From Myxococcaceae bacterium (GTDB taxonomy: Bacteria; Myxococcota; Myxococcia; Myxococcales; Myxococcaceae): a stretch of 36,351 nt of DNA. The DNA lies in assembly GCA_003818285.1 (NCBI GenBank), contig RPRB01000028.1, positions 1 to 36,351 on the forward strand, written 5' to 3'. Below, one piece after another: positions 8,380-26,943 of the stretch (its first letter is position 1; each line of letters begins with the position of its first letter). Both the position numbers and the translations under genes were made by a program. The notes beneath the pieces were generated by a model, which made no database searches, had not been told where the DNA came from, and saw only the letters and a program-made list of their open reading frames with translations.

Positions 8380-11099
8380 GCCGCATCATCAGCAAGCTTC
8401 GCACCACACCCATCGATGCCGAGGAGCGCCGTCTCGACGAGTCCCGGCGCAGGGAGAAGCACTGGAAGCGCTGGGGTCCGTACCTCAGCGAGCGGGCCTG
8501 GGGCACCGTGCGCGAGGACTACAGCCCGGGAGGAACCGCCTGGGACGATCTCCCGCACGATCACGCGCGCTCGCGCGCCTACCGCTGGAACGAGGACGGC
8601 ATCGCCGGGATCTCCGACCGGCACCAGACCCTCTGCTTCGCGCTGGCGCTCTGGAACGGCGTGGATCCGATCCTGAAGGAGCGCCTCTTCGGCCTCACCG
8701 GGCAGGAAGGGAACCACGGCGAGGACTGCAAAGAGCTCTACTGGTACCTGGACAGCACGCCGACCCACTCGTTCATGCGGATGCTCTACAAGTATCCGCA
8801 GCGCGCCTACCCCTACGAGGAGCTGCTCCGGCGGAACCGCGAGACGGGCCGGGACAACCGCGAGGTCGAGCTGCTCGACACCGGCGCCCTCGACGAGAAC
8901 CGGTACTTCGACGTCCAGGTCGACTACGCCAAGGCCGACGCGGAGGACATCCTCGTCCACCTCTCGGTGAGCAACCGGGGCCCGGACCAGGCGCACCTGC
9001 ACCTCCTCCCGACACTCTGGTTCCGGAACGTCTGGTCGTGGGGGCGTGGTGAGCCGAAGCCGCGGCTGGAGGCGCTCCCCGACGCCAGCGGCCGCGCGGT
9101 TGGCGTCCGAACCGAGCACCCCGTCCAGGGCAGCTTCACCCTGCGGACCGATGCCGACGCCGAGTGGCTCTTCACCGAGAACGAGACCAACTCCCTGCGG
9201 CTCTGGGGCGCGCCGAACGCCTCGCCCTACGTGAAGGACGCCTTCCATGCCCGGGTCATCGAGGGGCGCACCGAGGCGGTGAACCCCGCTCAGGTCGGCA
9301 CCAAGTCGGCGGCCTGGATCCAGCTCACCCTGCCCGCCGGCGCGACACGGACCATCCGGCTCCGGCTCAACCGCGGTGAACTCCACACCCCGGGAGGTTC
9401 AGGAGTCGGCGACGACTTCGATGCGGTGTTCGCCGCGCGCAGGGCGGAGGCAGACGCGTTCTACGCGAAGGTCATCCCCGCCGAGCTCAGCGACGACGGG
9501 CGCAACGTCATGCGCCAAGCCCTGGGGGGGATGCTCTGGAGCAAGCAGTTCTACCACTACGTGGTCCGCGACTGGCTCGAGGGCGACGCGGGCCACCCGC
9601 CGCCGCCCGACTCGCGCAAGGGCGGGCGCAACAGCGACTGGGGGCACCTCCACAACGCCGACGTGCTGAGCATGCCGGACAAGTGGGAGTACCCCTGGTA
9701 CGCGGCCTGGGACCTCGCCTTCCACTGCATCCCGCTCGCGCTGGTCGACTCCGACTTCGCAAAGGAGCAGCTGATTCTCATGCTCCGCGAGTGGTACATG
9801 CACCCCAACGGGCAGATCCCCGCCTACGAGTGGGCGTTTGGTGACGTGAACCCGCCGGTGTTCGCCTGGGCCGCGCTGCGCGTCTACCAGATCGAGAAGA
9901 AGCGCCGAGGCGCTGGAGACCTGGCCTTCCTCCGCAGGGTCTTCCACAAGCTGATGCTGAACTTCACCTGGTGGGTGAACCGGAAGGACGCCGAGGGCCG
10001 CAACGTGTTCCAGGGCGGCTTCCTGGGGCTGGACAACATCGGCGTGTTCGACCGGAGCGCGCCGCTGCCCACCGGCGGGCACATCGAGCAGTCCGACGGC
10101 ACCAGCTGGATGGCGATGTACTGCCTGAACATGCTCCGCATCTCGATGGAGCTCGCCTGCGCGGACGAGACTTACGAGGACGTGGCGAGCAAGTTCTGGG
10201 AGCACTTCGTCAACATCGCCCACGCGATGAACACGCTCGGGCTCTGGGACGAGGAGGACGGCTTCTACCACGACGTGCTCCACTTGCCGGACGGCCGGCG
10301 CATCCCGCTCCGGATGCGGAGCATGGTGGGCCTCATCCCGCTCTACGCAGTGGAGACGCTGGATCCTGGGCAGCTGGCGAAGGTGCCTGCCTTTGCCCGG
10401 CGCCTGGAGTGGTTCATCGACCACCGCCCGGACCTCACCGCCGGCGTGGCCTGCATGCGGACGCCGGGAAAGGCGGGCCGGCGACTGTTCAGCATCGTCA
10501 ACCCCGATCGGCTCCGCCGCATGCTGCAGCGGATGCTCGACGAGGACGCGTTCCTCAGCCCCTACGGCATCCGGAGCGTGAGCCGCGAACACCTGGACCG
10601 GCCGTACACGCTCGACCTGAACGGGACGAGCAACGGCGTGCGCTACGAGCCGGCGGAGAGCAGCACCGGCCTCTTCGGCGGCAACAGCAACTGGCGTGGG
10701 CCGATCTGGTTCCCGGTCAACTACCTCCTGGTCGAGTCGCTCCAGAAATTCCACCACTACCTGGGGGACTCCTTCACCGTGGAGTACCCGGCCCGCTCGG
10801 GAAGGCAGGCAACGCTGGCGGAAGTCGCCGCGGACATCTCGCGACGGCTCTCGCGCATCTTCCTCCGCGACGGCAGCGGCCGGCGCCCGGTGTTCGGAGG
10901 CCACCCCAGGCTGAACGGCGACCCGCATTTCCGGGACCTCATCCCCTTCCACGAGTACTTCCACGGCGACGACGGCTCCGGAGTCGGGGCGTCGCACCAA
11001 ACCGGCTGGACCGGCCTGGTCGCCAAACTCTTGCAACAAAGCCACGAGATGCCTGTCGAGGAGTCCCCGGCGGCAGAACCGAAGAGGAGAGCGTCATGA
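8376..11099 (+). CDS. GH63-type glycoside hydrolase (glucosidase-like)
   Basis: This is a 907-residue cytoplasmic glycoside hydrolase of the GH63/mannosylglycerate-hydrolase-like group with an (alpha/alpha)6 catalytic domain. Conserved blocks are visible: [17 protein letters not shown] and [19 protein letters not shown] in the N-terminal half, the catalytic-type [14 protein letters not shown] at 437-450 (Asp446 as likely acid), [14 protein letters not shown], and [21 protein letters not shown] near the C-terminus. Bacterial members release glucose from short alpha-glucosides or glycosylated compatible solutes. It overlaps both neighbours by ATGA and sits among debranching, glucose-oxidising and transport genes. 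No signal peptide is seen. The substrate is inferred only as an alpha-glucoside. Confidence 0.88.
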
Positions 11100-12199
11100 A
11101 GGCCGTCGCGGTGTTCCCTGGCAAGGCGGGCAGCGCCCACCTCGCCGAGCTTTCCCGCCCGAAGATCTCCGACGTCCCCGGCGGCCGAGGGGTCCGGGTG
11201 GAGGTTCTCCGGGTCGGCGTCGACGGCACCGACCGGGAGATCAACGACGCGGATTACGGCGAGGCTCCCGCCGGCTCACCCTTCCTGGTCCTCGGCCACG
11301 AGAGCCTCGGTCGGGTGGTGGAGGTCGGCCCGAACGTCACCGAGCTCCAGCCCGGAGATCTGGCGGTGGCGATGGTCCGCCGACCCGGGACCAGCGTCTA
11401 CGACGCGATAGGGATGCAGGACTTCACCACCGACGATGCCTACTTCGAGCGCGGCATCAGTCGCCTTCACGGCTTCCTCACCGAGGAGTACGTGGACAGC
11501 GCCGACTGGATCGTGAAGCTGCCCTCCACCCTGTCGAAGGTCGGCGTGCTGCTCGAGCCGATGACGGTGGTGGAGAAGGGTATCGGTCAGGCCTTCGAGG
11601 CCCAGCGGCGCCTCCGGGTCTGGCGGCCGCGACGGGCCGCGGTGCTGGGAGCGGGCACCATCGGCCTCATGGCGACGCTGGTCCTCCGGCTCCGCGGCCT
11701 GGCGGTGGACACCTTCGCCCTCAGCCCACGCCCCAACACGAACGCGACCCTGGTGGAGGCGACCGGCGCCCGGTACGTCTGCGGGCAGGACCGCAACGTG
11801 GTGCAGGCGGCCGAGGCGGAGGGTGGCTACGACCTCGTGTTCGAGTGCTCCGGGTTCAGTCCGCTGGTGTTTGACGGCATGCGAGCGCTGGCAAAGAACG
11901 GGGTGCTGGTCCTCTCCAGCATCACCGGCGGCGAGCGGAAGGTCGACGTGCCGTCGGACGCGATCAACCAGTCCTTCGTTCTCGGCAACAAGCTGATGCT
12001 GGGAACCGTGAACGCCGGGCGGGGGGACTTCGAGCAGGGGGTGCGCGATCTGGTCCAGTCCGAGGCCGCCTACCCCGGGTGGCTCGAGCAGCTCCTCACT
12101 CATCCCGTGCGCGGGCTCGAGAACTGGCCGATGCTCTTCGAGGCGCTGAACGGCAAGAAGGGGGTCATCAAGGCCTTCCTCGAGGTCTGTCCTTCGTGA
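11096..12199 (+). CDS. Glucose 1-dehydrogenase-like medium-chain dehydrogenase
   Basis: This is a 367-residue zinc-type MDR enzyme closest in layout to archaeal-type glucose dehydrogenases. It has a catalytic-zinc GHES (His68-Glu69) and Asp43 where other MDRs have Cys. The [14 protein letters not shown] block and the Rossmann motif [11 protein letters not shown] precede a nucleotide domain. It should oxidise glucose to gluconolactone with NAD(P). The structural-zinc cysteines expected between RRPG and ERGI are absent ([20 protein letters not shown]), so that lobe has lost its zinc. ATG 11096 has GAGGAG 6-11 bases upstream and overlaps the GH63 stop; its own stop overlaps the next GTG start. 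It probably removes glucose released by the GH63 and debranching enzymes. Confidence 0.85.
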
Positions 12200-14262
12200 G
12201 CACGCGGGTGACCAGCGCCGCGCCCGCCACCGCCCCGGGAGCCCCGGTGTCCGCCGTCCGCACGCCGGCGCCCATCGAGCTGCCCCGGGAGGTGTGCACG
12301 CTCTACCCGCGCGCCTCGCGCCTGGAGTGGCTGCTCACCAACGGCACCGGCGGCTTCGCGATGGGCACCGTCGCCGGATCGAACACCCGGCGCTACCACG
12401 GGCTGCTGGTGGCCAGCCTCCATCCGCCGGTGGCCCGGGTGGTGACGCTCGCCCGGCTCGAGGAGTCCGCGCTCACACCAGGGGGAGCGGTGCCGCTCTC
12501 GGTCAACCAGTACCCCAACACGCTCTACCCGGACGGGTACACCCGCCTGGTGCGCTTCTCGCTCGACGACGGGCCGGCGTGGACCTGGTCGGTCGGTGGG
12601 GCCGAGATCGAACGACGGGTGCGGCTCGTCCCGGGAGCCCAGACGGTGGTCGTCCGGTACGCAAGCTCGGCGCCGGCGCGGCTCCGGATCGAGCCCCTGC
12701 TCGCCTTCCGCGACTACCACGCGCTCACCCGCCGTAGTCCCGACGCCTGGACCGGCTTCGAGGAGCAGACCGGGGCGCAGGGGAGGGTGGTGCGCTTCCA
12801 GCCGTACGGGGGCCTTCCCTCGTTGCGCATCGCTCACCGGGGCGGGCCGTTCTCCGGCGCGCCGGCGTGGCACGAGAACGTCGAGTACCTCGAGGAGCTG
12901 GACCGCGGACTAGACTTTCGCGAGGACCTCCTGCTCCCGGGCAGCTTCGAGCTGGAGGTCGCGCCCGGCCACCCGCAGATCGTCGTGGCGACGGTCGAGG
13001 CCGCCTCCACGCTCGACCTCGATGCCCTCGGCGCGCTCTTCGGCCGTGCCGAGCCGCGCGTGCGGCCGCCGACTCCAGGGCGGCAAGGCAGCCGCGGGGA
13101 CGACCTCGGCGAGGGACGTGCCCGGCTGGAGCGCGCGGCCGACGCCTACCTCGTGCGGCGCGCGGACCGCTCGGCGACCGTCATCGCCGGATACCCTTGG
13201 TTCACCGACTGGGGGCGGGACACGATGATCTCCCTGCCCGGGCTCCTCGTGGCCCGTGGCCGGCTCGAGCTCGCGCGGGAGGTGCTGGAGGGCTTTCTCG
13301 CCCACCTCGACGGCGGGCTGGTCCCGAACCGCTTCCCCGACGCGGCGGGGCCGGCCGAGTACAACACGGTGGACGCGACGCTCTTCATGTTCCAGGCGGT
13401 CCACGCCTGGGAGCAGGCCGGCGGCTCTCCCGCGTTCATCCGCGACGTGTTCTACCCCGCGGCGTGCGGCATCGTGGACGCGCACCTGCGCGGAACGCAC
13501 CACGGCATCCACGTGGACCCGCGCGATGGGCTGCTGGTCGCCGGTGGGCCGGGAAGCAACCTGACCTGGATGGACGCGCGCGTCGACGGCGCGCCGGTCA
13601 CTCCCCGGCACGGCAAGCCGGTGGAGGTGAACGCGCTCTGGTACAACGCGCTCCGGCTGTCCGAGCGGTGGGCGCGGCAGGTCGGCGACGGCCCGCGCGC
13701 GCGCTCCTTCGGCCGCGACGCGGACCTGGTCGCCGGCGCCTTCGACCGTGCGTTCTGGAACGACGCACGGAGGTGCTGCTTCGACGTCATCCTGCCCGAG
13801 GGGCCGGATCCACGCCTCCGCCCGAACCAGCTCTTCGCGGTGGGCCTGCCTTTCCCCCTCCTCGACGGCCGCCGGCGGGCGATGGTGCTGGAGGCGGTGG
13901 AGGCGGCACTGGTGACCCCGGTGGGGCTGCGGACCCTCGCCCGGAGCGATCCCGGCTACCGGCCGACGTACCGCGGCGGGCCCGCCGAGCGGGACTCGGC
14001 GTACCACCAGGGGCTGGTGTGGCCCTGGCTGGTGGGCCCGTACGTGGACGCCCTGTTCGCGGTCCGGGGTTGTTGGGCGGAGACCCGGCCCCGGGCGCGC
14101 ACGGCCATCGGCTCGCTCGCCGCGCGCCTGGAGACCGGATGCCTCGGTCAGCTGCCTGAATGCTTCGAGCCGGAGCCGCCGTTTCGCCCGGTGGGCGCGC
14201 CGGCGCAGGCGTGGAGCGTGGCCGAGGTCCTGCGGGTCCTGGTGCGCCTCGGGGACGGCTGA
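12196..14262 (+). CDS. Glycogen debranching enzyme (amylo-alpha-1,6-glucosidase), first copy
   Basis: This 688-residue enzyme has a GDE N-terminal beta domain (about 30-300) with NGTGGFAMGTVAGSNTRRYH at about 49-68. The GH133-type (alpha/alpha)6 catalytic domain starts at YPWFTDWGRDTMISLPG (333-349) and runs through NRFPD, YNTVDATLF, NLTWMDAR and AYHQGLVWPW. It hydrolyses alpha-1,6 branch points in glycogen. GTG 12196 overlaps the upstream stop as GTGA. The last codon is 3 bases before the aquaporin start, so all are in one operon. A second, differently built debranching enzyme lies at 16267. Confidence 0.9.
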   Translation: MSTRVTSAAPATAPGAPVSAVRTPAPIELPREVCTLYPRASRLEWLLTNGTGGFAMGTVAGSNTRRYHGLLVASLHPPVARVVTLARLEESALTPGGAVPLSVNQYPNTLYPDGYTRLVRFSLDDGPAWTWSVGGAEIERRVRLVPGAQTVVVRYASSAPARLRIEPLLAFRDYHALTRRSPDAWTGFEEQTGAQGRVVRFQPYGGLPSLRIAHRGGPFSGAPAWHENVEYLEELDRGLDFREDLLLPGSFELEVAPGHPQIVVATVEAASTLDLDALGALFGRAEPRVRPPTPGRQGSRGDDLGEGRARLERAADAYLVRRADRSATVIAGYPWFTDWGRDTMISLPGLLVARGRLELAREVLEGFLAHLDGGLVPNRFPDAAGPAEYNTVDATLFMFQAVHAWEQAGGSPAFIRDVFYPAACGIVDAHLRGTHHGIHVDPRDGLLVAGGPGSNLTWMDARVDGAPVTPRHGKPVEVNALWYNALRLSERWARQVGDGPRARSFGRDADLVAGAFDRAFWNDARRCCFDVILPEGPDPRLRPNQLFAVGLPFPLLDGRRRAMVLEAVEAALVTPVGLRTLARSDPGYRPTYRGGPAERDSAYHQGLVWPWLVGPYVDALFAVRGCWAETRPRARTAIGSLAARLETGCLGQLPECFEPEPPFRPVGAPAQAWSVAEVLRVLVRLGDG

Positions 14263-14265
14263 GCC

Positions 14266-15072
14266 GTGCGCCGCTTCCTCGAGCACCTGCCGGAATACGC
14301 CATCGAGGCCGCGCTGCTCGGGGCCTTCATGGTCTCGGCATGCTGCTTTGGCGTGCTGCTCGAGCACCCGGACTCGCCGGTGCACCGGGCCGTCGGTGAT
14401 CCCTTCCTCCGGCGGGTCCTGATGGGCCTGGCGATGGGCGCGACGGCCGTCGCCATCATCTACTCGCCGTGGGGGGGCCGATCGGGGGCGCACATCAACC
14501 CGGCGACGACGCTGACCTTCTGGCGGCTGGGGAGGATCCGCGGGGCCGATGTCGCCGGCTACGTGGGCGCCCAGCTCGTGGGCGCGGTGGTCGGCGTGGC
14601 GCTCGCCTCGGCGCTGCTCGGTTCTCGCCTGGCGCACACCTCGGTGTCCTTCGTCGTCACCCGGCCAGGTCAGTGGGGGTCGCTCGTCGCGCTCGTCGGG
14701 GAGATCGTCATCTCCGCCATCCTCATGGCGGTCGTGGTGATGCTCGGTGGATCCCGGCTCGCACGCTTCACGGGCCTGGTCGTGGGCCTCCTGGTGGCGA
14801 CGTACATCACCGTGGAGGCCCCCATCTCCGGGATGAGCATGAACCCCGCGCGGTCGTTCGGGTCGGCCTGGGGCGCCGGACAGTGGGATGGGTTCTGGAT
14901 CTACGTGGCCGGACCGCTGCTGGGGATGAGCCTCGGGGCGACGCTCGCGGCCCGGGCACGGCCTCGCCCCGCCTGCCCGAAGCTCCACCATCCGGTCTCG
15001 CAACGCTGCATCTTCTGCGGTCACGCGCCGGCGGAGCAGCTCGAGCGGTCGGCGCTCCCCGCGGCGCGCTGA
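14266..15072 (+). CDS. MIP-family channel (aquaporin/glycerol facilitator) with Cys-rich tail
   Basis: This 268-residue channel has six membrane segments and both NPA motifs: HINPATT (Asn78-Pro79-Ala80) and SMNPARS (Asn193-Pro194-Ala195). It carries water or small neutral solutes through the inner membrane. The cytoplasmic C-terminal tail is unusual: Cys237, Cys248, Cys251 and His253 form C-x10-C-x2-C-x-H (within CPKLHHPVSQRCIFCGH), a possible metal- or redox-sensing knuckle. GTG 14266 follows the debranching stop by 3 bases. In this operon it suggests osmotic balance during sugar turnover; the specificity is not evident. Confidence 0.9.
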   Translation: MRRFLEHLPEYAIEAALLGAFMVSACCFGVLLEHPDSPVHRAVGDPFLRRVLMGLAMGATAVAIIYSPWGGRSGAHINPATTLTFWRLGRIRGADVAGYVGAQLVGAVVGVALASALLGSRLAHTSVSFVVTRPGQWGSLVALVGEIVISAILMAVVVMLGGSRLARFTGLVVGLLVATYITVEAPISGMSMNPARSFGSAWGAGQWDGFWIYVAGPLLGMSLGATLAARARPRPACPKLHHPVSQRCIFCGHAPAEQLERSALPAAR

Positions 15073-15206
15073 CACCGACCCGGGGTCTCCTCGCTCCCCG
15101 AGCACGCAGGCGGCTCGACCCTGGACCGCGGGGCAAGCTCGGGCTGCCACACCCGACTCCGCGACATAACTTCCTGTCGCTCATTCCACGATCGAGAGGA
15201 GGACGT

Positions 15207-16274
15207 GTGCGGATCGCGCAGGTGGCCCCGTTGTTCGAGAGCGTTCCGCCCCGGCGGTATGGCGGAACGGAACGCGTGGTCTCGTACCTGACGGAGGAGC
15301 TGGTCCGGCAAGGCCACCGGGTCACGCTCTTCGCCACCGGGGATTCGCAAACATCCGCCGAGCTGGTCCCCACCCTCGCCCGGCCGCTGCGGGGAGACCC
15401 GCACTGGCTCGTGCATGCCCTGATCCAGCTGGAGCAGGTGTTCCAGCGCGCCGAGGATTTCGACGTCCTTCACTTCCACACCGACCACCTGCATTACCCG
15501 CTGCTCCGTCACTGTGACATTCCGGTGGTGACCACGGCGCACGGCCGCCTCGACCTTCCCGGTCTGCCGAGGCTGCACCGGGTTTTCTCCGGCGCGGCGG
15601 TGGTCTCCATCTCCGAGGCGCAGCGGGCGCCGCTCCCGCAGGCGCGATGGGTGGGGACCGTCCACCACGGGCTGCCGCCAAGCCTGTACTGGCCGGGGAG
15701 CGGGGCCGGCGGCTACCTGGCCTTCGTGGGTCGCATCTCGCCCGAGAAGCGCCTCGACCGGGCGCTGGAGATTGCCCGCCGCGCGGGGCTCCCGCTCCAC
15801 ATCGGGGCGAAGGTAGACCCCGCCGACCGGGCGTACTTCGAACGCGAGATCGAGCCGCTTCTCGACCGCCCAGGAGTGAAGTACCTGGGCGAGATCGGAG
15901 ACCGGGAGAAGGGAGACCTCCTCGCAGACGCTCTCGCCGTGCTCTTCCCCATCGACTGGCCGGAACCGTTCGGGCTGGTGATGCTCGAGGCGATGGCCTG
16001 TGGCACCCCGGTGCTCGCCTTTCGCGGCGGCTCGGTCGAGGAGATCATCCGCCCGGGTGTGACCGGAGCGATCGTGGACACGGTGGACGAGGCGGTGGCG
16101 GCCCTTCCCGACGTGGTCCGGCTCGACCGGCGCAGATGCCGGGAGGAATTCGAGCGCCGATTCTCGGCGCGGCGGATGGCGCGGGACTACGTCCGGGTCT
16201 ACGAGCGGGTGATGGATGCCCCCTGGCGAGTCGCCGAGTCTGGCTGGAGTGCGGGAGCCGCCTCGAATGGCTGA
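15207..16274 (+). CDS. GT4-type glycosyltransferase
   Basis: This 355-residue retaining GT-B glycosyltransferase has the N-terminal glycine loop (APLFESVPPRRYGGTERVVSYL) and the C-terminal nucleotide-sugar motif EPFGLVMLEAMACGTP at 253-268, followed by FRGGSVEEII. Such enzymes move a hexose from an NDP-sugar to an acceptor. The start is GTG 15207, with GAGGAG about 7 bases upstream. It follows the aquaporin by a 134-base gap that may hold its own promoter (none clear), and overlaps the second debranching gene by 8 bases. The acceptor is unknown; glycogen, trehalose-like or lipid-linked sugars are all possible. Confidence 0.88.
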   Translation: MRIAQVAPLFESVPPRRYGGTERVVSYLTEELVRQGHRVTLFATGDSQTSAELVPTLARPLRGDPHWLVHALIQLEQVFQRAEDFDVLHFHTDHLHYPLLRHCDIPVVTTAHGRLDLPGLPRLHRVFSGAAVVSISEAQRAPLPQARWVGTVHHGLPPSLYWPGSGAGGYLAFVGRISPEKRLDRALEIARRAGLPLHIGAKVDPADRAYFEREIEPLLDRPGVKYLGEIGDREKGDLLADALAVLFPIDWPEPFGLVMLEAMACGTPVLAFRGGSVEEIIRPGVTGAIVDTVDEAVAALPDVVRLDRRRCREEFERRFSARRMARDYVRVYERVMDAPWRVAESGWSAGAASNG

Positions 16275-18405
16275 GACCCGGGTCACGGAGAGACACGACG
16301 AGCTGGGCCGGGTGCTCATGCACCAGGACACCTTCGCGGTGTTCGACCGAGCCGGCGCGATCTCCTCCGAGGCCCGGAACGAGCAGGGGGTCTACCACCG
16401 GGGAACGCGCTACGTGTCCCGCCTCGACCTCCGGATCGACGGACAGCGGCCGATGACCCTCAGCTCGAGCGTGGTCCGCGACAATGCTTTGCTCGCAGTG
16501 GACCTGACCAATCCCGATCTCGTGCGAGAGGGCCACCCGCCGATCCCGCACGGGACGATCCATTTCTTCCGGGGCTGCGTGCTCGAGAACGGCGTCTGCC
16601 ACCAGCGGCTCCGGATCCTCAACCACTCGGTGGGCGAGATCTCCTTCGAGCTGCGCATCCGGCTGGAGGCCGACTTCGTGGACGTGTTCGAGGTCCGGGG
16701 CACGCCACGCAGCCGCCGCGGGAGGCAGGAGACCCCGGAGGAGCACCAGGACGGCATCGGAATCGCCTACCGGGGCCTCGATGGAGTCCTCCGCCGGACG
16801 CGCCTTCGATGTCGTCCCCCTCCGTCCCAGGTGACGGCGAAGGAGGTTCGCTTCGGTCTCGCGCTCGGGCCGGGGGAGGAACGCGAGCTGTTGCTCGAGG
16901 TGAGCTGCACCGCAGGACAGGACGAGGAGCGGGTGCCGTCCTTCGTCGACGCGGCCCTCCGGAGAGACGCCGAGCAGGAGGCGCTGCGCGCGCAGGAAGC
17001 GCGGGTCAGCTCGTCGAGCGGCCTCTTCGACGGCTGGCTCCACCGCTCGCAGGCCGACCTGCGAATGCTCCTCACCCGGACGCCGCGGGGCCTGTACCCC
17101 TACGCGGGCGTGCCCTGGTACAGCACGCCCTTCGGCCGCGACGGGATCATCACCGCGCTCCAGATGTTGTGGATCCACCCGGAGGTGGCGGCCGGGGTCC
17201 TGCGCTTCCTCTCCGCCACCCAGGCCACTCATCCCTCGGAGGAGCAGGACGCCGAGCCGGGGAAGATCATCCACGAGCTGCGCCACGGCGAGATGGCTGC
17301 GCTCCGGGAGGTGCCGTTCGGCCGGTACTACGGGGCGGTGGACACCACGCCCCTGTTCCTCGTGCTCGCCGGCGAGTACCTGCGCGCGACCGGAGATCTG
17401 GAGCTCATCCGGGAGCTCTGGCCCCACTTCCAGGCGGCACTGGAGTGGATCGAGAAGCACGGCGATCGGGACGGCGACGGCTTCGTGGAGTACGCGCGCC
17501 GGGCGGCCGGCGGCCTCGCCAACCAGGGGTGGAAGGATTCCTTCGACGCGGTCTTCCACGCCGACGGCCGGCTCGCCGAGGGGCCCATCGCGCTGTGCGA
17601 GGTGCAGGCCTACGTGTTCGCAGCGCGGAGGGCGATGGCACGAATGGCGCGCGCGCTCGGTCACGAGGAGCTCGCGCGGCGCCAGGCGGCCCTGGCCGAC
17701 GAGCTGCGGCAGCGCTTCGAGGACACGTTCTGGTGCGAGGATCTTTCGACCTACGCGCTCGCGCTCGACGGGGCGAAGCGGCCCTGCCGGGTCCGTGCCT
17801 CGAACCCCGGCCACTGTCTGGCGATGGGGCTGGTCACCGTCGAGCGGGCGCAGCGCGTGGCGACCACGTTGACCGGCGAAGCCTTCTTCTCCGGCTGGGG
17901 AATCCGCACCGTGGCGATGGGCGAGGCGCGCTACAACCCGATGTCGTACCACGACGGTTCGGTCTGGCCGCACGACAACGCCCTCGCCGCGCTGGGATTC
18001 GGTCACTACGGGCTCAAGACGGCGGCGCTGTCGATCCTGGAGCAGTTCTTCCTCGCCAGCCTGTCCTTCGAGCTCCGGCGCATGCCCGAGCTGTACTGCG
18101 GCTTCCCCAAGCGGCCCGGGGCCGGTCCCACGCTCTACCCCGTCGCGTGCTCACCGCAGGCATGGGCCTCGGGGTCGGTGCTGATGATGCTTCGAGCGGT
18201 GCTGGGTCTCGACGTTGACGGGTTACGCGGCCAGGTCACCTTCAGCAATCCGATGCTTCCCGACTTCCTCGACGTGCTCCAGATCGAGGACCTTCCGGTG
18301 GGTCCGGCGCGCGTCGACCTCCGGGTGCATCGCTACGCGGACGGTGCCGCGGGGATCGACGTGGTGCGGCGGTCCGGTCCGGTGAGCGTGTCGATCCACA
18401 AGTGA
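16267..18405 (+). CDS. Second glycogen debranching enzyme (GDE N-terminal-bis + amylo-1,6-glucosidase)
   Basis: This 712-residue enzyme differs from the copy at 12196. A GDE_N_bis-type N-terminal domain (about 20-215; FAVFDRAGAISSEARNEQGV, YVSRLDLRIDG) precedes an (alpha/alpha)6 catalytic domain with PWYSTPFGRDGIITALQ (283-299), ATGDLELIRELWPH, NQGWKDSFDAV and YHDGSVWPHDNALAALG (561-577). ATG 16267 overlaps the glycosyltransferase stop by 8 bases. It should cleave alpha-1,6 glucosyl branches or related oligosaccharides. The pair of dissimilar debranching enzymes in one locus suggests different substrates. No signal peptide. Confidence 0.9.
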   Translation: MAETRVTERHDELGRVLMHQDTFAVFDRAGAISSEARNEQGVYHRGTRYVSRLDLRIDGQRPMTLSSSVVRDNALLAVDLTNPDLVREGHPPIPHGTIHFFRGCVLENGVCHQRLRILNHSVGEISFELRIRLEADFVDVFEVRGTPRSRRGRQETPEEHQDGIGIAYRGLDGVLRRTRLRCRPPPSQVTAKEVRFGLALGPGEERELLLEVSCTAGQDEERVPSFVDAALRRDAEQEALRAQEARVSSSSGLFDGWLHRSQADLRMLLTRTPRGLYPYAGVPWYSTPFGRDGIITALQMLWIHPEVAAGVLRFLSATQATHPSEEQDAEPGKIIHELRHGEMAALREVPFGRYYGAVDTTPLFLVLAGEYLRATGDLELIRELWPHFQAALEWIEKHGDRDGDGFVEYARRAAGGLANQGWKDSFDAVFHADGRLAEGPIALCEVQAYVFAARRAMARMARALGHEELARRQAALADELRQRFEDTFWCEDLSTYALALDGAKRPCRVRASNPGHCLAMGLVTVERAQRVATTLTGEAFFSGWGIRTVAMGEARYNPMSYHDGSVWPHDNALAALGFGHYGLKTAALSILEQFFLASLSFELRRMPELYCGFPKRPGAGPTLYPVACSPQAWASGSVLMMLRAVLGLDVDGLRGQVTFSNPMLPDFLDVLQIEDLPVGPARVDLRVHRYADGAAGIDVVRRSGPVSVSIHK

Positions 18406-19503: not shown

Positions 19504-20127
19504 GTGCGCTCGAGCTCCAGTTCACGGCGATCTGTAGCGGAGAACCCACCGGATCTGATCGAACGGCTCCTGGCCGGGGACGAGGCGATGTTCGTGGCCC
19601 TGGTGCAACGCTGGCGGGGCGGGCTGCTCCGCGTTGCGCAGGCCATCACCGGGAATGCCTCCACTGCCGAGGAAGTGGTCCAGGAGACATGGACCTCGGT
19701 GCTGAGGTCTCTCGAGACCTTCGAGGGACGCTCGAGCCTCCGGACCTGGGTGCACCGGGTCTGCGTGCACGTGGCGCTCGCCCGGATTCGCCACGACGAG
19801 CGCGCGTCGGTGCCCGACGAGCCGGTGGTCGATCCGGATCGCTTCGACGAGTACGGCCACTGGCGAGAGCCGCCGGCGCGGTGGGCCGAGGAAACCCCCG
19901 AGGCGCTCGCCGTCCGCCGAGAGGTGATGGACTGCATCGAGCGGACCGTCGCGATGCTCCCCGTCCGGCAGCGCGTCGTCATCACGCTGCGCGATGTGCA
20001 GGGCTTCAGGGCCGAGGACGCATGCGAGATCCTCGGGGTGACCGCCGTCCACCAGCGAGTGCTCCTCCACCGCGCCCGGAGCCGCGTGCGCGCCGAGTGC
20101 GAGCGGTTCTACCGGGAGGCTGCCTGA
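19504..20127 (+). CDS. ECF-family RNA polymerase sigma factor (second of two)
   Basis: This 207-residue sigma factor is a paralogue of the one at 5581. Region 2 spans about 22-95 (AGDEAMFVALVQRW, EEVVQETWTSVLRSLETFEG, LRTWVHRVCVHVALAR). The linker is FDEYGHWREPPARWAEE, and region 4 spans about 145-200 (LPVRQRVVITLRDVQGF, TAVHQRVLLHRARSRVR). GTG 19504 lies directly behind a GGTAACC promoter, so a leaderless transcript is likely; there is no Shine-Dalgarno. Its stop and the start of the tiny anti-sigma gene share one base (TGATG). It converges on the bufferin operon, a natural candidate target. Confidence 0.9.
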   Translation: MRSSSSSRRSVAENPPDLIERLLAGDEAMFVALVQRWRGGLLRVAQAITGNASTAEEVVQETWTSVLRSLETFEGRSSLRTWVHRVCVHVALARIRHDERASVPDEPVVDPDRFDEYGHWREPPARWAEETPEALAVRREVMDCIERTVAMLPVRQRVVITLRDVQGFRAEDACEILGVTAVHQRVLLHRARSRVRAECERFYREAA

Positions 20128-20303
20128 TGCTCCGCTGCGTGGAGTTCGTCGAGCAGGTCACCGAGATGGAGGAGGGAGCGAGTCGCCCCCTGGCGAGACT
20201 GTGGTTTCAACTTCACCGGCTCGCCTGCAGGTACTGCCGGCGCTACCTCCGCCAGATGCGGGCCGTCCGAGAGGTGATGCAGGCCCCAGCATCCCCGGAG
20301 TGA
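20127..20303 (+). CDS. Very short ZAS-type anti-sigma factor
   Basis: This 58-residue protein keeps the anti-sigma core: Cys4 in CVEFVEQVTEMEEGA and the zinc knuckle His30-x3-Cys34-x2-Cys37 (HRLACRYC), followed by YLRQMRAVREV. It aligns with the 85-residue ZAS protein at 6276 in order and spacing but has a much shorter tail. It has no membrane segment and is probably a cytoplasmic zinc- or thiol-sensing inhibitor of the sigma factor whose stop it overlaps (TGATG). Its size makes it easy to miss. Confidence 0.8.
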   Translation: MLRCVEFVEQVTEMEEGASRPLARLWFQLHRLACRYCRRYLRQMRAVREVMQAPASPE

Positions 20304-20349: not shown

Positions 20350-20366
20350 TCTCAGGCGCGCTGAGA
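20350..20366 (-). terminator. Hairpin spanning the bufC stop codon
   Basis: TCTCAG-GCGCG-CTGAGA (6-bp stem, 5-base loop) includes the bufC stop at 20352-20354. It could end the buf operon mRNA. There is no T-tract, so the support is the perfect stem and its position. Confidence 0.35.
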
Positions 20367-21131
20367 CGTGACCGCCGCCACCCACCCATCGGCGAACCAG
20401 CTGAGCACCGTCTTGAACGCTGCGTGCGCCGGGTCCGGCTCTCCGGCGAAGGTGGCGCAGACCTCCTCCAGACTCCCGCCCTCGCGGGCGACCATCAGCG
20501 CACGCGATTCGGGCTCCGACAGGCCGGTGTGGAACACCTTGAACTCCTGCCGCCACACCACGACCGTCGTGTGCACCGGCACCGGGTCCGGCACATCGCC
20601 GGCGTCCTCCTCCAGGACGTCCCAGAGCCTCCGGACGTCGTGCTGGAGCCGGAGCACCCGGAGCGCGGGAGAGAAATGAAACCGGGCTCCCGGAAGGGCG
20701 CCGGGGTTGAGCGACTGAAGCTCCTCGGCCCCGGCCACCGGCGCATCGAGGGCGGTGCGGACCTCGGAGCGCGCGCGCTCGAGGATCACCAGGTCCGGCA
20801 GGTCCGGGCGGATGCCGCTGTACGTCCGGAGCCACGTCCCGAAGTGCCGGCCGGCCTGCGAGATGTCCGGCGAGCGGCTGGGATGCTCGTGGAGGTACGC
20901 GCGCACCAGCTCGACGAACGCCTCGTGCCCGAGCACCCGCGAGGTGTGCGGGACGTCCTCGGCGATCGCGTCCACCAGTCGGTGGAGGTACATCCCGGCA
21001 TAGATCTCGACCCGCGCCAGCGCATCGAGGGGGGGACGCGCCACCACCTGCTCGCGGACCTCGTCCTCGCGCTCCGCCACCATCCCGGTGATGCGCCCGT
21101 GGAGGAGCGCCTGGAGCTCGGCGAGAGTCAC
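20352..21131 (-). CDS. bufC: BufC-type partner protein (DUF2063, DNA-binding-domain-like)
   Basis: This 259-residue DUF2063 protein is the usual partner of DUF692/MNIO enzymes and recruits the RiPP precursor. Visible family features are an N-terminal helical domain (TLAELQALLHGRITG, RVEIYAGMYLHRLVDAIAEDVPH, GHEAFVELVRAYLHEHPSRSPDISQAGRHF) and a C-terminal domain after about 170 (VVVWRQEFKVFHTGLSEPE, WFADGWV). GTG 21131 overlaps the bufB stop as GTGA. The family name and partnership are established knowledge; the role in this strain is inferred. Confidence 0.85.
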   Translation of the reverse strand: MTLAELQALLHGRITGMVAEREDEVREQVVARPPLDALARVEIYAGMYLHRLVDAIAEDVPHTSRVLGHEAFVELVRAYLHEHPSRSPDISQAGRHFGTWLRTYSGIRPDLPDLVILERARSEVRTALDAPVAGAEELQSLNPGALPGARFHFSPALRVLRLQHDVRRLWDVLEEDAGDVPDPVPVHTTVVVWRQEFKVFHTGLSEPESRALMVAREGGSLEEVCATFAGEPDPAHAAFKTVLSWFADGWVAAVTSQRA

Positions 21132-21958
21132 GCCGCGGCCTCGCCGAGCACCGACCTCTCGAAGGCCCGCGCCTTCTCCGCCTGGGCCAGCACCTCGTCG
21201 AGCGGCGGGATGTGGTCGTCCCACTCGACGAGCGTGCTCACTCGCCCGAAGCGGCGGACCGCGTCCCGGTAGAGCGCCCAGACCGGGTCGGGCACCGGCG
21301 CGTCGTGCGTGTCCAGCAGGTGCGTCCCGAGGTCCTGGTGACCCGCCAGATGGAACTGCGCCACCCGCTCCACCGGGATGCCGCGGAGGTACTCCGCCGC
21401 GTCGAATCCGTGGTTGGTCGCGCTCACGTACACGTTGTTCACGTCCAGCAGGAGCAGGCAGTCCGCGCGCCGCGCCACCTCGGCCAGGAAGTCCCATTCG
21501 GGGATGCTGGAGGCGGCGTAGGTGAGATAGCTGGAGACATTCTCCAGCACGATGCGCCGCCCGAGCCGCTCCTGCACCTCGGAAACCCGGCTCACCACGT
21601 GGGCCAGCGACTCCTCGGTGAAGGGTATGGGCAAGAGGTCGTGCGCGTTGTGCCGCCCGAAGGTGCCCCAGCAGAGGTGGTCCGAGACCCAGGCCGGCTC
21701 CACCGCCTCCGCGAGCGCCCGGACGTCATCGAGGTACTCGACGTTCAGCGGGTCCACCGAGCCGATGGACAGGGACACGCCGTGGAGCACCACCGGCCGA
21801 TCCCGCCGTACGGCCTCCAGCACCGCCCGGGGGCGCCCACCGACGTTCAGGAAGTTCTCGGTGATGACCTCGAACCAGTCGGCCCGCCGGCCCTGCTCGA
21901 GCAGGTCGGGGAAGTGCTTGGTGCGCAGGCCGATGCCGTGGCCGAGGAAGGGAACCAT
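21128..21958 (-). CDS. bufB: MNIO/DUF692 multinuclear iron oxidase (BufB)
   Basis: This is a 276-residue DUF692 (MNIO) TIM-barrel enzyme. Such enzymes use two or three irons to convert cysteines of a precursor peptide into heterocycles such as thiooxazoles. Expected metal-binding residues are present: His59 (VLHGVSLS), His94 (SDHLCWG), Glu139 (LENVSSY), Asp172/Asn174 (LLDVNN), His203/His207 (FHLAGH), Asp216 and Glu245/Asp247 (VEWDDHIP). The start MVPFLGHGIGLR at ATG 21958 fits the family; an earlier ATG at 22009 lies in the terminator hairpin region. It overlaps bufC and follows bufA behind a hairpin. Confidence 0.93.
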   Translation of the reverse strand: MVPFLGHGIGLRTKHFPDLLEQGRRADWFEVITENFLNVGGRPRAVLEAVRRDRPVVLHGVSLSIGSVDPLNVEYLDDVRALAEAVEPAWVSDHLCWGTFGRHNAHDLLPIPFTEESLAHVVSRVSEVQERLGRRIVLENVSSYLTYAASSIPEWDFLAEVARRADCLLLLDVNNVYVSATNHGFDAAEYLRGIPVERVAQFHLAGHQDLGTHLLDTHDAPVPDPVWALYRDAVRRFGRVSTLVEWDDHIPPLDEVLAQAEKARAFERSVLGEAAA

Positions 21959-21973
21959 GATCCTGGAGCTCAG

Positions 21974-22030
21974 AAAAGCACACCGGAGCCAGGGACGCGC
22001 GGTCGGCAAGCGCGCTCCGGCTCCGGTGTG
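21974..22030 (-). terminator. Strong intrinsic terminator/attenuator between bufA and bufB
   Basis: On the minus strand a perfect 12-bp outer stem (CACACCGGAGCC at 21979-21990 with GGCTCCGGTGTG at 22019-22030) continues inward with GGA/TCC and GCGCG/CGCGC pairs, for about 20 bp in all, around a 9-base loop. CTTTTCTG follows, a U-tract. The hairpin begins about 12 bases after the bufA stop and ends upstream of bufB. It is the only hairpin in the window with a clear T-run. Confidence 0.85.
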
Positions 22031-22042
22031 GTGAGACCTCGA

Positions 22043-22324
22043 CTACTTCTTGGCGGTGAGGACCTTCCCGCCCTTGTCGGTGCACTCCTTCTCGGTCTTG
22101 GTCGCAGTCCAGCCCTGGCCCTTGCAGCCGTTCTGGCCGCCGCAGCCGTGGCCGCCGCCCGCGCACGCACCGGTGCCCTTGCAGGAGTTGATGCCGGCAC
22201 ACTTCACCTCGCCGCCGGCCTTGGCGTGACCCGTGCTCTTGTCCTGCTGCGCGTGGGCGGCGGTGGCGAACATCGCGCACACGGCCGAGGCGATGAGGGC
22301 GCCCCTCAGGTTCTTTCCGTTCAT
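22043..22324 (-). CDS. bufA: Bufferin-type cysteine-rich RiPP precursor (BufA-like)
   Basis: This 93-residue exported precursor peptide has a signal peptide (1-25, ending AHA). A core (about 40-81) holds six cysteines: Cys42, 48, 54, 61, 67 and 81, in the pattern KCxGxNSCKG, CAGGGHGC and GGQNGCKGQGW. This resembles the BufA2-type bufferins, periplasmic copper-binding peptides whose cysteines are modified by BufB/BufC. ATG 22324 overlaps the upstream gene's stop by 4 bases, and GAGGAA lies about 10 bases upstream. The next genes are the MNIO enzyme and DUF2063 partner, which makes the call firm; the exact subfamily (BufA1 or BufA2) and metal are inferred. Confidence 0.88.
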   Translation of the reverse strand: MNGKNLRGALIASAVCAMFATAAHAQQDKSTGHAKAGGEVKCAGINSCKGTGACAGGGHGCGGQNGCKGQGWTATKTEKECTDKGGKVLTAKK

Positions 22325-23031
22325 GTTCGACACTTCCTCTCTTCGTGGGGACTGCGGGTGGACGGCCGCGTCGAGCACGGCGCGTTGTCTCCGCTCGCGC
22401 GAGGGCGAGCGGAAGTTCCTGGGGGTGAGGCGAACAGCGTCAGCTCCAGCGTACCCTCCTCGGCGACCACCTTGGCCAGGGACTGTACCCGGGCGAGCCA
22501 CCCCTCGGTGAACCGGGGGCCGATGCGGTAGGCCTCGCGGTGGAAGTGCTCCACGTGGGCGCGAATCCGGTAGAAGCCGTCGTCGAGCCGCACCACGGTG
22601 CCGGTCACGCGCTCGCGCCCTCCGTCCTCGCGTGCGCGGCCGCACACGGTGAACGGAACCTCGGCCTGGAACGGGCTGCTCTCACCGGACGCCTGGGGCA
22701 AGGACACCGCGATCTCCTCCAGTTGCGCCGCGAGCATGCAGCGAGCGGGGTCCGCCTTGCGGTTGGTGGCCCACTGCCGGAAGTGCTCGGTCTTGGTCGG
22801 GTCGGCGTCCACGGTGATGCTGGTCAGGGGTACGGAGCAGCGCCCGGAAAGGTTACGGCCGTCCGGGCTCATCTGGATGTCACAGTGCACGGCGGAGGAA
22901 ACGGCGGTGATGCGCTCCCCGAGCGGTGCGTCGAACACGCCGTTCAGGGTGTTGTTCCCCGCCTCCCCGTCGACGCGCAGCGTCTGGACCGGGGAAGCCG
23001 AGAGGAGCAGGAGGGCGACCGCGCCGAGCAT
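22321..23031 (-). CDS. YceI-like periplasmic lipocalin-fold protein
   Basis: This 236-residue exported protein has a short signal peptide (MLGAVALLLLSASPVQT). Its body has YceI-family hallmarks: GRCSVPLTSITVDADPTKTEHFRQW, FQAEVPFTVCGR and a terminal beta stretch ending EGTLELTLFASPP. YceI proteins fold as a beta barrel that binds isoprenoid tails (polyprenols, quinones). The last 35 residues (Arg/Ser/Pro-rich) extend past the family and run into bufA. It starts 5 bases after the dehydrogenase stop and overlaps bufA by 4 bases, so it belongs to the buf operon. A YceI protein there is not a standard buf component that I know. The family call rests on pattern, not on a search. Confidence 0.7.
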   Translation of the reverse strand: MLGAVALLLLSASPVQTLRVDGEAGNNTLNGVFDAPLGERITAVSSAVHCDIQMSPDGRNLSGRCSVPLTSITVDADPTKTEHFRQWATNRKADPARCMLAAQLEEIAVSLPQASGESSPFQAEVPFTVCGRAREDGGRERVTGTVVRLDDGFYRIRAHVEHFHREAYRIGPRFTEGWLARVQSLAKVVAEEGTLELTLFASPPGTSARPRASGDNAPCSTRPSTRSPHEERKCRT

Positions 23032-23036
23032 GGCCC

Positions 23037-24872
23037 TCAGGAGTCGCCACCGGCGCGGAGCGTTACGTGAGCGTCGCCGGCCGCGGCGCGGAGGTCCTGC
23101 CGGCTAGCGGAGATCTGGCTGATGCTCCGCTCGACGAGCAGATCCAGGGTCCAGTCGAGAACCACCCGGACCTTGTTCCCGAACCCCACCAGCTTGGTGA
23201 GGTACAGGCTGCGCCAGATGAACCACGCCAGGGCGCCGGACATCCTGACCCCCACGAGGTCGACGGCGGCGAAGTGCTCGCCCACCGAGACCAGCGCTCC
23301 GTAGTTGAAGTAGCGGAACGGCTGGAGCGGCTCGCCGCGGATCAGCCGGGCGAGGTTCCTTCCGGTGTGGGTGCCGTGCTGGAAGGCCACCTGGCCGAGG
23401 GGCGGCAGTGGTTTGCCCTCCTGCTGGCAGAGGGAGGCGTCACCGAGGACGAAGACCTCGGAGTGTCCCGGCACGCGCAGGTCCTCGCCCACCGGGACGC
23501 GGCCCGAGGGGTGCTTCGGGAGATCGACTGCCCCGAGGAGGCCGGCCGGCTTCACCCCCGCGCACCAGACCGTGGTTCGCGCGGCGAGGGTCTCGCCACC
23601 ATCGAGCGCCACGGCGAACTCGCTGACCGACTGGACCTTCCGCCCGGTGAGCACCCGCACGTCGAGGGCGTGCAGCTGGTCCGTCGCCCGCTGCGCCACG
23701 GTGGGATGCCACCCGGGGAGGATCTGCGGCGCGGACTGGACCAGCACCAGGTCGACCTCTGCCGGGTTCACCTCGGGGTAGCGCACGAAGAGCACGTGCT
23801 CGATGAGGTCGCGGATCTCTGCCATCAGCTCCACACCGGTGGGCCCGCCGCCGACCACGACGAAGCGCAGGAGCGCGGCTCGCCGCTCGGCGGACTCCTC
23901 CTGCGCCGCGAGCTCGAAGCAGTCGATGATGTGGTTCCTCACCGAGACCGCGTCGCCCAGCTCGCGCATGAAGAAGGCGTGCTCGGCCACGCCGGGCGTG
24001 CGAAAGGTCTGGGTCTCGCTTCCGGGGGCGAGGACCAGCGCGTCGTAGCGGATCTCTCGGTGACAGGCCCCGGACTGCTCGTCGACGTCGGCGCGGGTGT
24101 GGACCACCTTCTCCCGGACGTCGATGGACTCCACCGTCTCCTTGCGAAAGACGACGCTGGTCGCCTCGAAGATGCGCCGGAAGGGGTAGGTCACCTGCCG
24201 GGTCTCGATGGCTCCGGTGGCGACCGAGGGGAGGAGCGGGGGGAAGAGGAAGTAGTTCCGCCGGTCGAGGACCACGATCTCCAGCGACCGGTGGTGGCCC
24301 AGCCGCCGGTCGAGCTCCAGCGCGGTGTACAGGCCGGCAAAGCCACCGCCGACAATGACCACGCGGAAGGGCGCCGCGCGTTCCGGCGCGGTCCATCGCT
24401 CGTAGAGCCACATGTCCCGGAGCGGGCGGCCCACCAGGTAGGCCAGGCCCAGCCCGAGCAGAAGCACCACCGGCCCGAGGAGCGCCCGGGCCAGGCCGAG
24501 CATCGGCAGGAGCAGCCAGCAGACGACGTCCAGCGTGGCGAGCCCGAGCAGGAGCACGGTCACCGCGGCACGGGCTCGGCGGGCGAGCGCCACCCGCCGG
24601 AAGAGCCGGAAGGCCACCCCGCCCACCAGGGCCAGGGAGAGGACGTGGACCGCGAAGAGCGCGTGGAACCACGGCCCGGCGTAGGCCCGCACCTTCATCA
24701 GCATCGAGCCCCAGCCGAGGAATCCCTCGAGGGTGAGCGCCCAGTTGGTGAGGAGCACCGACAGCGCGACGCCTCCCGCAAAGAGTGCGGCCCCGGTGAC
24801 CAGACCGAGGCTGGCCAGGAGCTTGCGAATCGGGGACAGATTGACGAGGGGGTAGGCGTCGCGGCGGCTCAT
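23037..24872 (-). CDS. NDH-2-type NADH dehydrogenase with an N-terminal four-helix membrane domain
   Basis: This 611-residue flavoprotein is first in the buf operon. Residues 1-165 hold about four membrane segments (near 18-42, 66-90, 103-122, 128-148). After them comes a normal type-II NADH:quinone oxidoreductase with the FAD motif VVIVGGGFAGLY (about 171-182), NAD motif RFVVVGGGPTGVELMAE, the C-terminal GDAS and AFQHGTHTG motifs, and a membrane-anchoring tail (FIWRSLYLTKLVGFGNK). NDH-2 passes electrons from NADH to quinone without pumping. Most NDH-2 proteins lack the membrane domain, so this is a fusion. ATG 24872 is chosen; GTG 24893 is also possible. It starts the run yceI-bufA-bufB-bufC. 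Confidence 0.85.
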   Translation of the reverse strand: MSRRDAYPLVNLSPIRKLLASLGLVTGAALFAGGVALSVLLTNWALTLEGFLGWGSMLMKVRAYAGPWFHALFAVHVLSLALVGGVAFRLFRRVALARRARAAVTVLLLGLATLDVVCWLLLPMLGLARALLGPVVLLLGLGLAYLVGRPLRDMWLYERWTAPERAAPFRVVIVGGGFAGLYTALELDRRLGHHRSLEIVVLDRRNYFLFPPLLPSVATGAIETRQVTYPFRRIFEATSVVFRKETVESIDVREKVVHTRADVDEQSGACHREIRYDALVLAPGSETQTFRTPGVAEHAFFMRELGDAVSVRNHIIDCFELAAQEESAERRAALLRFVVVGGGPTGVELMAEIRDLIEHVLFVRYPEVNPAEVDLVLVQSAPQILPGWHPTVAQRATDQLHALDVRVLTGRKVQSVSEFAVALDGGETLAARTTVWCAGVKPAGLLGAVDLPKHPSGRVPVGEDLRVPGHSEVFVLGDASLCQQEGKPLPPLGQVAFQHGTHTGRNLARLIRGEPLQPFRYFNYGALVSVGEHFAAVDLVGVRMSGALAWFIWRSLYLTKLVGFGNKVRVVLDWTLDLLVERSISQISASRQDLRAAAGDAHVTLRAGGDS

Positions 24873-24905: not shown

Positions 24906-24962
24906 CCGTTACACCCGCCTCCGGACGGGCGCACCCGACGCACGCACCCCCTGGTGTAACGG
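24906..24962. promoter_or_regulatory. Perfect 10-bp inverted repeat between divergent buf operon and MFS gene
   Basis: CCGTTACACC (24906-24915) and GGTGTAACGG (24953-24962) are exact inverted copies 37 bp apart. Each half, read outward, is a TGTAACG -35 box: plus strand toward the MFS gene, minus strand toward the buf operon. They may be two divergent ECF promoters or one operator. The minus-strand copy has no clean -10. Confidence 0.6.
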
Positions 24963-26300: not shown

Positions 26301-26312
26301 TGGAGCACTAGG
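26296..26312. terminator. Palindrome holding both stop codons of convergent MFS and GST genes
   Basis: CCTAGTG-GAG-CACTAGG is a perfect 7-bp stem with a 3-base loop. The MFS stop TAG (26298-26300) lies in one arm and the GST stop (26308-26310, minus TAG) in the other. It is a bidirectional terminator-like structure without a T-run. Confidence 0.55.
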
Positions 26313-26943
26313 CTGCCGGCTCCGTCGAGGCGATGCTCGGCCTCGCCGCGTGCGCGGCCTCCAGCGCCAGCAGCTCCGGCCACGGCGCGAGGTCCAGCCG
26401 CTTCCGGAAGCGGATCCAGCCCAGGAGCGTCACCACCGCCACGTCCACGTAGGCGAGGCGCCCCGGGGCGAGCGTCCGCTTTCCGCGGTACGTCCGCTCC
26501 AGCCAGTCCAGGCACGCCCTGGCCCGGGCGTTCTGGCGTTGCAGGGTGGGCGACTGCTCGGGCCGGATGCCGTCGCCCTCGAGGAGGAACACGTTCACCA
26601 GGCTGTCCTGCGCGGCGTCGGCGACGGAGAGGACGTTCTGGTCGAGCAGCCCGAGCGACGGCTCGAGCAGGGCGTCCTGGAACGGCGGGTCTCCGCCGGG
26701 GGACGGGTGGGGGAGCGTGAAGAGCATCGCGGCGATGGCCCGGGAGTCGAAGAGGTGGCGCACCGGCCCGCCCGGCCCGAGGTCCAGTACCGGCAGCCGC
26801 TGGATGGGCGAGGCGGCGACGAACTCGGGCGCGGGGTCGCGCCAGTCGCGGGTGTTTCGCTCGAAGGGAATGCGCAGCTCGGCAAGGAGGACCCGGACGC
26901 GGCGCACCCAGGGGGAGGCATCGTGACCGAACAGCTTCAGCAC
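26308..26943 (-). CDS. Glutathione S-transferase family protein
   Basis: This 211-residue GST has a thioredoxin-fold N-terminal domain (1-80; GHDASPWVRRVRVLLAELRIPFE, RLPVLDLG, FDSRAIAAML) and an all-helical C-terminal domain (about 95-200; LACVD-type AYVDVAVVTLL). The Ser10/Pro11 pair matches the active-site position of bacterial GSTs. It conjugates or reduces electrophilic compounds with glutathione. GTG 26943 is used as the start; a GGAGG lies about 13 bases upstream. It stands alone, convergent with the MFS gene. Confidence 0.85.
   Translation of the reverse strand: MLKLFGHDASPWVRRVRVLLAELRIPFERNTRDWRDPAPEFVAASPIQRLPVLDLGPGGPVRHLFDSRAIAAMLFTLPHPSPGGDPPFQDALLEPSLGLLDQNVLSVADAAQDSLVNVFLLEGDGIRPEQSPTLQRQNARARACLDWLERTYRGKRTLAPGRLAYVDVAVVTLLGWIRFRKRLDLAPWPELLALEAAHAARPSIASTEPAA

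Follow-up and report, generated by a model that had tools for sequence, protein, structure and literature searches.

A type-2 bufferin operon of Myxococcaceae with a predicted YceI-fold companion, a linked ECF sigma factor gene, and a lineage-specific NADH:quinone oxidoreductase gene

Bufferins are a large and recently recognized family of copper-buffering ribosomally synthesized and posttranslationally modified peptides (RiPPs), and their operons have been described with only four core genes. Here, a bufferin operon was analyzed on contig RPRB01000028.1 of a Myxococcaceae bacterium (assembly GCA_003818285.1; the whole 36,351-nucleotide stretch is called the window). Its five minus-strand genes, read from 24872 to 20352, encode a type II NADH:quinone oxidoreductase (NDH-2), a YceI-like protein, the precursor BufA, the MNIO maturase BufB, and the partner protein BufC. 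Most probably, this is a type-2 bufferin (Buf2) operon for envelope metal stress, built on an architecture found across Myxococcota: an extracytoplasmic function (ECF) sigma/anti-sigma pair, a four-cysteine YceI, bufA2, bufB, and bufC. The YceI would be an accessory for a lipophilic ligand, and the NDH-2 gene a local addition. The evidence consists of the family membership of BufA2, BufB, and BufC, the predicted YceI fold, gene order, sigma linkage, and a YGTAAY box. If this is true, bufferins have a fifth, phylum-wide partner and Buf2 a sigma factor, which would mean that the peptides work within a wider envelope-stress response, and the four-cysteine YceI becomes a concrete, testable candidate for membrane protection under copper stress. 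An over-reading is put right as well: a quinone dehydrogenase is not a general feature of bufferin operons.

A preliminary description of the window had proposed a bufferin-type RiPP operon of five overlapping or closely spaced genes, and all five are present with the expected spacings. The stop codon of NDH-2 lies 5 nt from the ATG of yceI, the yceI stop and bufA start overlap as ATGA, and bufB and bufC have 4 nt in common. BufA scored 67.1 bits against NF050166 (Cu_RiPP_BufA2; cut-off, 60), BufB 369.8 bits against NF050167 (cut-off, 310) and 362.2 bits against PF05114, and BufC 56.1 bits against DUF2063 (PF09836; cut-off, 27.2). BufC reached 42.5 bits against NF050145 (HvfC), below the cut-off of 142. 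The mature part of BufA contains the six cysteines described earlier (positions 42, 48, 54, 61, 67, and 81), with one further cysteine in the signal peptide; this six-cysteine pattern occurs in 90% of Buf2 precursors (PMC12452194). The core is an ordinary, well-formed Buf2 operon. Compared with known Buf2 operons (BufA2/Buf_6/12Cys; Caulobacter vibrioides; Antoine et al. 2025, PMC12452194), it has, in the usual order, the same BufA2 with signal peptide and six cysteines, the same BufB MNIO, and the same DUF2063 BufC. It differs in having no DoxX gene within the operon, a YceI-fold gene before bufA, and ECF sigma and anti-sigma genes alongside. That study reports sigma factor genes in Buf1 clusters, not Buf2, and its main text mentions neither YceI nor NADH. 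Among the matches listed for the bufferin, MNIO, and methanobactin literature, YceI was likewise not found. The component parts are of known kinds, but neither a bufferin partnership of the conserved four-cysteine YceI nor the Buf2 sigma link in Myxococcota appears to be described in the literature searched.

The bufA-bufB pair is the sole separated pair of the operon, and its 87-nt gap contains a strong hairpin. A hairpin with a similar stem and a partly different sequence is present at the same place in the locus of a sister genome, G082 (JADGQZ010000128.1; loci L010/L014), and hairpin-plus-T signals were seen in the bufA-bufB gap of several other loci. The hairpin probably sets the precursor/enzyme ratio and would allow an excess of precursor over its enzymes. 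Two observations concern the core more loosely. DoxX is a usual member of bufferin clusters, and in the window a DoxX protein is encoded at 180-713 (minus strand), 20 kb from the operon and not within it. In another genome (L151:4056-4283, minus strand), a BufA2 of 75 aa has no central cysteine block in a sigma-yceI-bufABC locus that is otherwise complete.

The protein encoded between NDH-2 and bufA had been labeled YceI-like. In the Pfam search it gave no match, PF04264 included, even at E values up to 10, and the label was instead upheld by predicted structure and by alignment to relatives. The alignment with eight homologues from other genomes (51 to 57% identity to the window protein) has 57 invariant columns, including Cys 50, 65, 98, and 130. 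With this alignment, AlphaFold2 returned a model with a mean pLDDT of 84.4, and all 13 of its Foldseek matches in the PDB at an E value of ≤0.001 were YceI, polyisoprenoid-binding, or bacterial lipocalin structures (best E value, 1.2e-7; 2X32, 2X34, 3Q34, 3HPE, 7BWL, 1WUB, 1Y0G, and 5IXG, with TM scores of about 0.5 to 0.7). The family profile found nothing among the PDB sequences, and the match came only from structure comparison. The protein is therefore predicted to have the YceI lipocalin-type fold. Like E. coli YceI (1Y0G), the Thermus thermophilus protein (1WUB), and Burkholderia BcnA and BcnB, it is secreted, with about 190 residues in the mature form. It differs from them in the missing Pfam YceI match, in its four invariant cysteines, which BcnA and its homologues lack (PMC9113575), and in its genetic partner, a bufferin operon instead of the cytochrome b561 of BcnA-type proteins. 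Because Cys 50/65 and Cys 98/130 face each other on adjacent strands of the model, the four cysteines probably form two hairpin-bridging disulfides. In the window, the yceI open reading frame (ORF) extends about 28 codons beyond the stop of its relatives, into DNA that is intergenic elsewhere, and this extension closes the gap to bufA.

With its signal peptide, invariant cysteines, and place immediately before the precursor, the four-cysteine YceI could also be a second substrate of the MNIO/DUF2063 pair and not an accessory, and it has been proposed that MNIOs may modify larger proteins as well (PMC12452194). The order yceI-bufB-bufC-bufA2 in locus L128 (5651-8209, plus strand), where the four-cysteine YceI takes the usual place of the precursor directly before bufB and bufA2 comes last, would also suit this explanation. 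However, the cysteines sit on strands that pair within a lipocalin barrel, their spacing is unlike that of bufferin cysteine motifs, and related MNIO-adjacent YceIs in Myxococcaceae have no cysteine at all, which makes a substrate role very unlikely. In L128, bufA2 is followed by another sigma factor gene.

YceI is tied to the operon by conserved synteny. The four-cysteine YceI profile was searched in 195 Myxococcota genomes, and the positions of the matches were compared with those of MNIO genes (PF05114). Strong matches were found in 12 genomes, 11 of which were testable, G115 being cut by a contig end. In 10 of these 11 (G000, G120, G131, G132, G136, G143, G144, G149, G150, and G155), the gene is co-directional with an MNIO gene and lies directly upstream of it, and the exception is G121. 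An apparent deltaproteobacterial case (L023) has a YceI identical to that of G120 and was hence not counted twice. Weaker matches (E values of 1e-10 to 1e-5) came from YceIs of 22 Myxococcaceae genomes, cysteine-less in all those read; of the 21 genomes that could be tested, 19 have this gene directly before an MNIO gene and two, G036 and G038, do not (G019 was excluded because of a contig end). Canonical YceIs also precede bufA2 in three loci (L095, L103, and L044). In the preliminary description, both YceI and NDH-2 had been taken as unusual members of the operon; for YceI this does not hold, as it is a recurrent MNIO/bufferin companion in Myxococcota.

Could YceI be a bystander, a common stress protein that shares a stress regulon and a chromosomal region with bufferins? 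YceIs recognized by PF04264 are abundant in the phylum (1 to 10 per positive genome), and sigma and stress genes cluster in the region. On the other hand, only one YceI per genome reaches the four-cysteine profile, and the MNIO-linked YceIs are a subfamily of their own that hardly occurs away from MNIO genes, with constant gene order and strand and a short intervening gap. With a handful of YceIs in genomes of 5 to 13 Mb, the chance that one falls in the 1.5 kb before a given MNIO gene is, by our arithmetic, of the order of 0.1%. The YceI-MNIO linkage is therefore not due to chance, and we regard the bystander explanation as quite unlikely.

In the Myxococcaceae loci that were read, YceI and MNIO flank a precursor that is a short cysteine-containing peptide and not BufA2. 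Three of these loci (L011:7196-8119, L012:7670-8613, and L013:7920-8741) each encode, in this order, a cysteine-less YceI, a lipobox-bearing short cysteine peptide, an MNIO, and a DUF2063-like protein. The peptide of L011, the one tested, is recognized by no NCBIfam model, and such peptides may represent an unrecognized family of MNIO precursors.

Another element of the proposed architecture is the ECF sigma factor, whose gene is convergent with bufC in the window. Its small zinc-finger-type anti-sigma partner matched NF052368 (antisigmaE) with 32.5 bits (E value, 5.5e-8), below the cut-off of 50; a zf-HC2 anti-sigma partner of the sigma factor was also seen in the cases scanned (L112, L151, and L092). 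Close relatives of the sigma factor (E value of ≤1e-36) occur in only 23 of the 195 genomes, and in six other genomes (G143, G131, G136, G132, G051, and G149) the best match stands beside a bufA2 operon, divergent and ahead of yceI in G143 and G149. Of 10 loci, 7 carry a YGTAAY box between -59 and -77 of yceI, a number reached in none of 500 dinucleotide shuffles (mean, 0.36; maximum, 3). This significance is somewhat overstated, as the box had been spotted by eye before the test, and the test covered the YGTAAY half only, the -10 half being too weak for a claim. The sigma factor linked to the bufferin operon is a candidate regulator that may act through this box. In Caulobacter, GTAACC-N16-CGAA is the promoter from which the ECF factor sigmaF drives bufferin operons (PMC3511200). 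The likeness lies in an ECF sigma factor with bufferin operons and a GTAAC-type -35 box, and here it consists of linkage and box only. The Caulobacter anti-sigma is of the DUF1109 type instead of the zinc-finger type, and the CGAA of its -10 element is not matched by the sequence that follows the Myxococcota box.

Several observations weigh against this reading of the operon. A four-cysteine YceI lies directly upstream in about one-third of the sampled Myxococcota BufA2 loci and is missing from about two-thirds, proportions that are rough because the 60 loci were picked nonrandomly from high-scoring matches across genera. The sister genome G082 keeps bufA (89%) and bufB (91%) with only decayed yceI fragments. 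YceI is therefore not essential for bufferin function. The closest Myxococcaceae relatives of the family are without the four cysteines, and cytochrome b561, with which BcnA-type YceIs usually pair, was not seen in a nonexhaustive scan of the neighbors. As to the sigma factor, its orthologue in G144 is on a different contig from yceI, no close orthologue was found in a search of G120, G150, and G155, and where the gene stands and which way it points with respect to the operon differ between loci, so that the linkage is not a fixed arrangement.

On the preferred reading, a YceI accessory in a sigma-controlled Buf2 operon, envelope copper stress would release the sigma factor, and yceI-bufABC would be transcribed. 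In the cytoplasm, as in characterized bufferins (PMC12452194), BufB and BufC would convert cysteines of the BufA2 precursor, and the peptide would then be exported by Sec and bind excess copper in the periplasm. YceI would be exported too and, judging from its fold, may bind a lipophilic ligand, for instance a quinone or another isoprenoid, as ubiquinone-8 has been found in YceI barrels (PMC9113575). There, it may shield the membrane from copper-provoked lipid radicals in the manner of the Burkholderia lipocalin BcnA, which limits lipid peroxyl radicals together with its cytochrome b561 partner LcoA (PMC9113575).

The NDH-2 gene gave a different result. As described earlier, its product is an NDH-2 with a membrane domain: PF07992 (Pyr_redox_2, 139.7 bits), PF00070, and PF22366 (NDH2_C, 35.4 bits) are all over their cut-offs, phmmer matched solved NDH-2 structures at an E value of 2.5e-52, and the N-terminal region of about 165 residues has its hydrophobic stretches within residues 18 to 149. 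The protein is similar in sequence to FSP1, a quinone-reducing, radical-trapping enzyme. The full catalytic domain and the NDH2_C domain are as usual for the family, whereas no true homologue of the N-terminal domain was found in the 195 Myxococcota genomes. One match, in G130, was rejected, as that ORF encodes an ABC-transporter permease and the similarity was one of composition. In a comparison with plasmids, the catalytic domain alone was matched, at about 35% identity, and AlphaFold2 with a three-row alignment gave a pLDDT of 52.

A co-directional NDH-2 gene upstream of bufA was seen in none of 76 bufB loci from public genomes and in none of 60 further Myxococcota MNIO loci, with or without YceI; in L137, a plain NDH-2 gene lies at a distance of about 2.5 kb from the operon and points the opposite way. 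Thus, of the two genes that were expected beside bufABC in relatives, yceI recurs, and NDH-2 is absent from all other loci (about 136 examined) and is a one-off neighbor. The sister locus is without NDH-2 as well. The window and G082 share flanking genes for a glutathione S-transferase (GST), a response regulator, and a galactokinase, and the flanks of other relatives are unrelated. In G082, yceI adjoins the GST gene, which in the window (26308-26943) lies beyond a gene of the major facilitator superfamily (MFS). NDH-2 and the MFS gene thus seem to be either missing together from the sister or inserted in the window lineage.

A few other NDH-2s carry different membrane domains, in G118 (L202) and G128 (L203). 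The L202 protein is a single ORF of 848 aa (5200-7746, minus strand) in which an aquaporin (MIP) is fused to an NDH-2 and to a cyclic-nucleotide-binding domain. The neighbors of these fused NDH-2s are an ECF sigma factor closest to the second sigma factor of the window (5581-6279; 54 to 55% identity), an MGH1-like glycosidase (75% identity), and an aquaporin, and in G118 a glycogen-debranching enzyme too. All those island genes are present at 5.5 to 18.4 kb of the window, but no NDH-2 follows its aquaporin. The region at 5581-18405, with the second ECF sigma, the MGH1-like glycosidase, glycogen-debranching enzymes, the aquaporin, and a glycosyltransferase-like ORF, recurs largely in G118 and G128, which suggests a conserved stress/carbohydrate island. 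From these two other genomes, the economical reading is that the membrane-fused NDH-2 would belong to that island and came to precede the bufferin operon here. On the preferred reading, NDH-2 is a local insertion into, or a captured neighbor of, the transcription unit and not a general bufferin component.

In the preliminary description, NDH-2, YceI, and the bufferin had been proposed to form one functional unit that ties respiratory quinone chemistry to the metallophore or its maturation. The tight spacing of the first three genes, the similarity to FSP1, and the pairing of ubiquinone-8-binding YceI lipocalins with a membrane electron-transfer protein (PMC9113575) are in its favor, as is the TGTAAC box before NDH-2, which suggests a single transcript. 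An internal promoter had been named as a sign against such a unit, and a candidate CGTAAC box does lie between NDH-2 and yceI. Because the box occurs before NDH-2 and again before yceI, NDH-2 may be transcribed together with the rest of the operon, or yceI and the buf genes may have a transcript of their own. With no comparative support, the unit is unlikely, and a tie to the respiratory chain is possible in this one lineage, where NDH-2 could act as an electron donor for YceI. A somewhat less doubtful variant, still rather unlikely, is that a redox-active four-cysteine YceI carries quinone or traps lipid radicals and that the membrane-fused NDH-2 adds a cytoplasmic electron source, the possible role of cytochrome b561 for BcnA, which would give a self-contained operon against copper and lipid peroxidation under an ECF sigma factor. 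Overall, the earlier idea is partly supported. Its YceI half is strengthened by the conserved synteny across Myxococcota, and its NDH-2 half is not supported as a conserved feature, because no other buf locus has the gene, the sister included, and the fused NDH-2s lie in another island.

Table 1. Features of the operon and its surroundings (window positions unless a locus is named)
Feature	Position	Strand	Remarks
NDH-2 (type II NADH:quinone oxidoreductase), hydrophobic N-terminal domain of ~165 residues	23037-24872	-	611 aa; lineage-specific member
YceI-like gene, secreted four-Cys protein with predicted YceI-fold (lipocalin-type)	22321-23031	-	236 aa; alignment, AlphaFold2, Foldseek, synteny
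bufA (BufA2 precursor), Sec-type signal peptide	22043-22324	-	93 aa; NF050166
bufB (BufB, MNIO maturase)	21128-21955	-	NF050167, PF05114
bufC (BufC, DUF2063 partner protein)	20352-21131	-	PF09836
Hairpin followed by CTTTTCT, attenuator-like, in bufA-bufB gap	21979-22030	-	-38.6 kcal/mol
ECF sigma factor, convergent with bufC	19504-20127	+	Sigma70_r2/r4
Small zinc-finger-type anti-sigma factor	20124-20303	+	NF052368 antisigmaE, below cut-off
TGTAAC box, candidate -35 element of ECF promoter, 41 nt upstream of NDH-2 start	24908-24913	-	
CGTAAC box in NDH-2 3' end, just upstream of yceI, candidate internal promoter	23062-23067	-	
Decayed yceI fragment beside intact bufA and bufB in G082 (JADGQZ010000128.1, L010/L014)	L010:1431-1867	-	

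Between the divergent NDH-2 and MFS genes (24908-24960), two TGTAAC boxes face each other (24913 on the minus strand and 24955 on the plus strand), and the MFS gene may belong to the same regulon.

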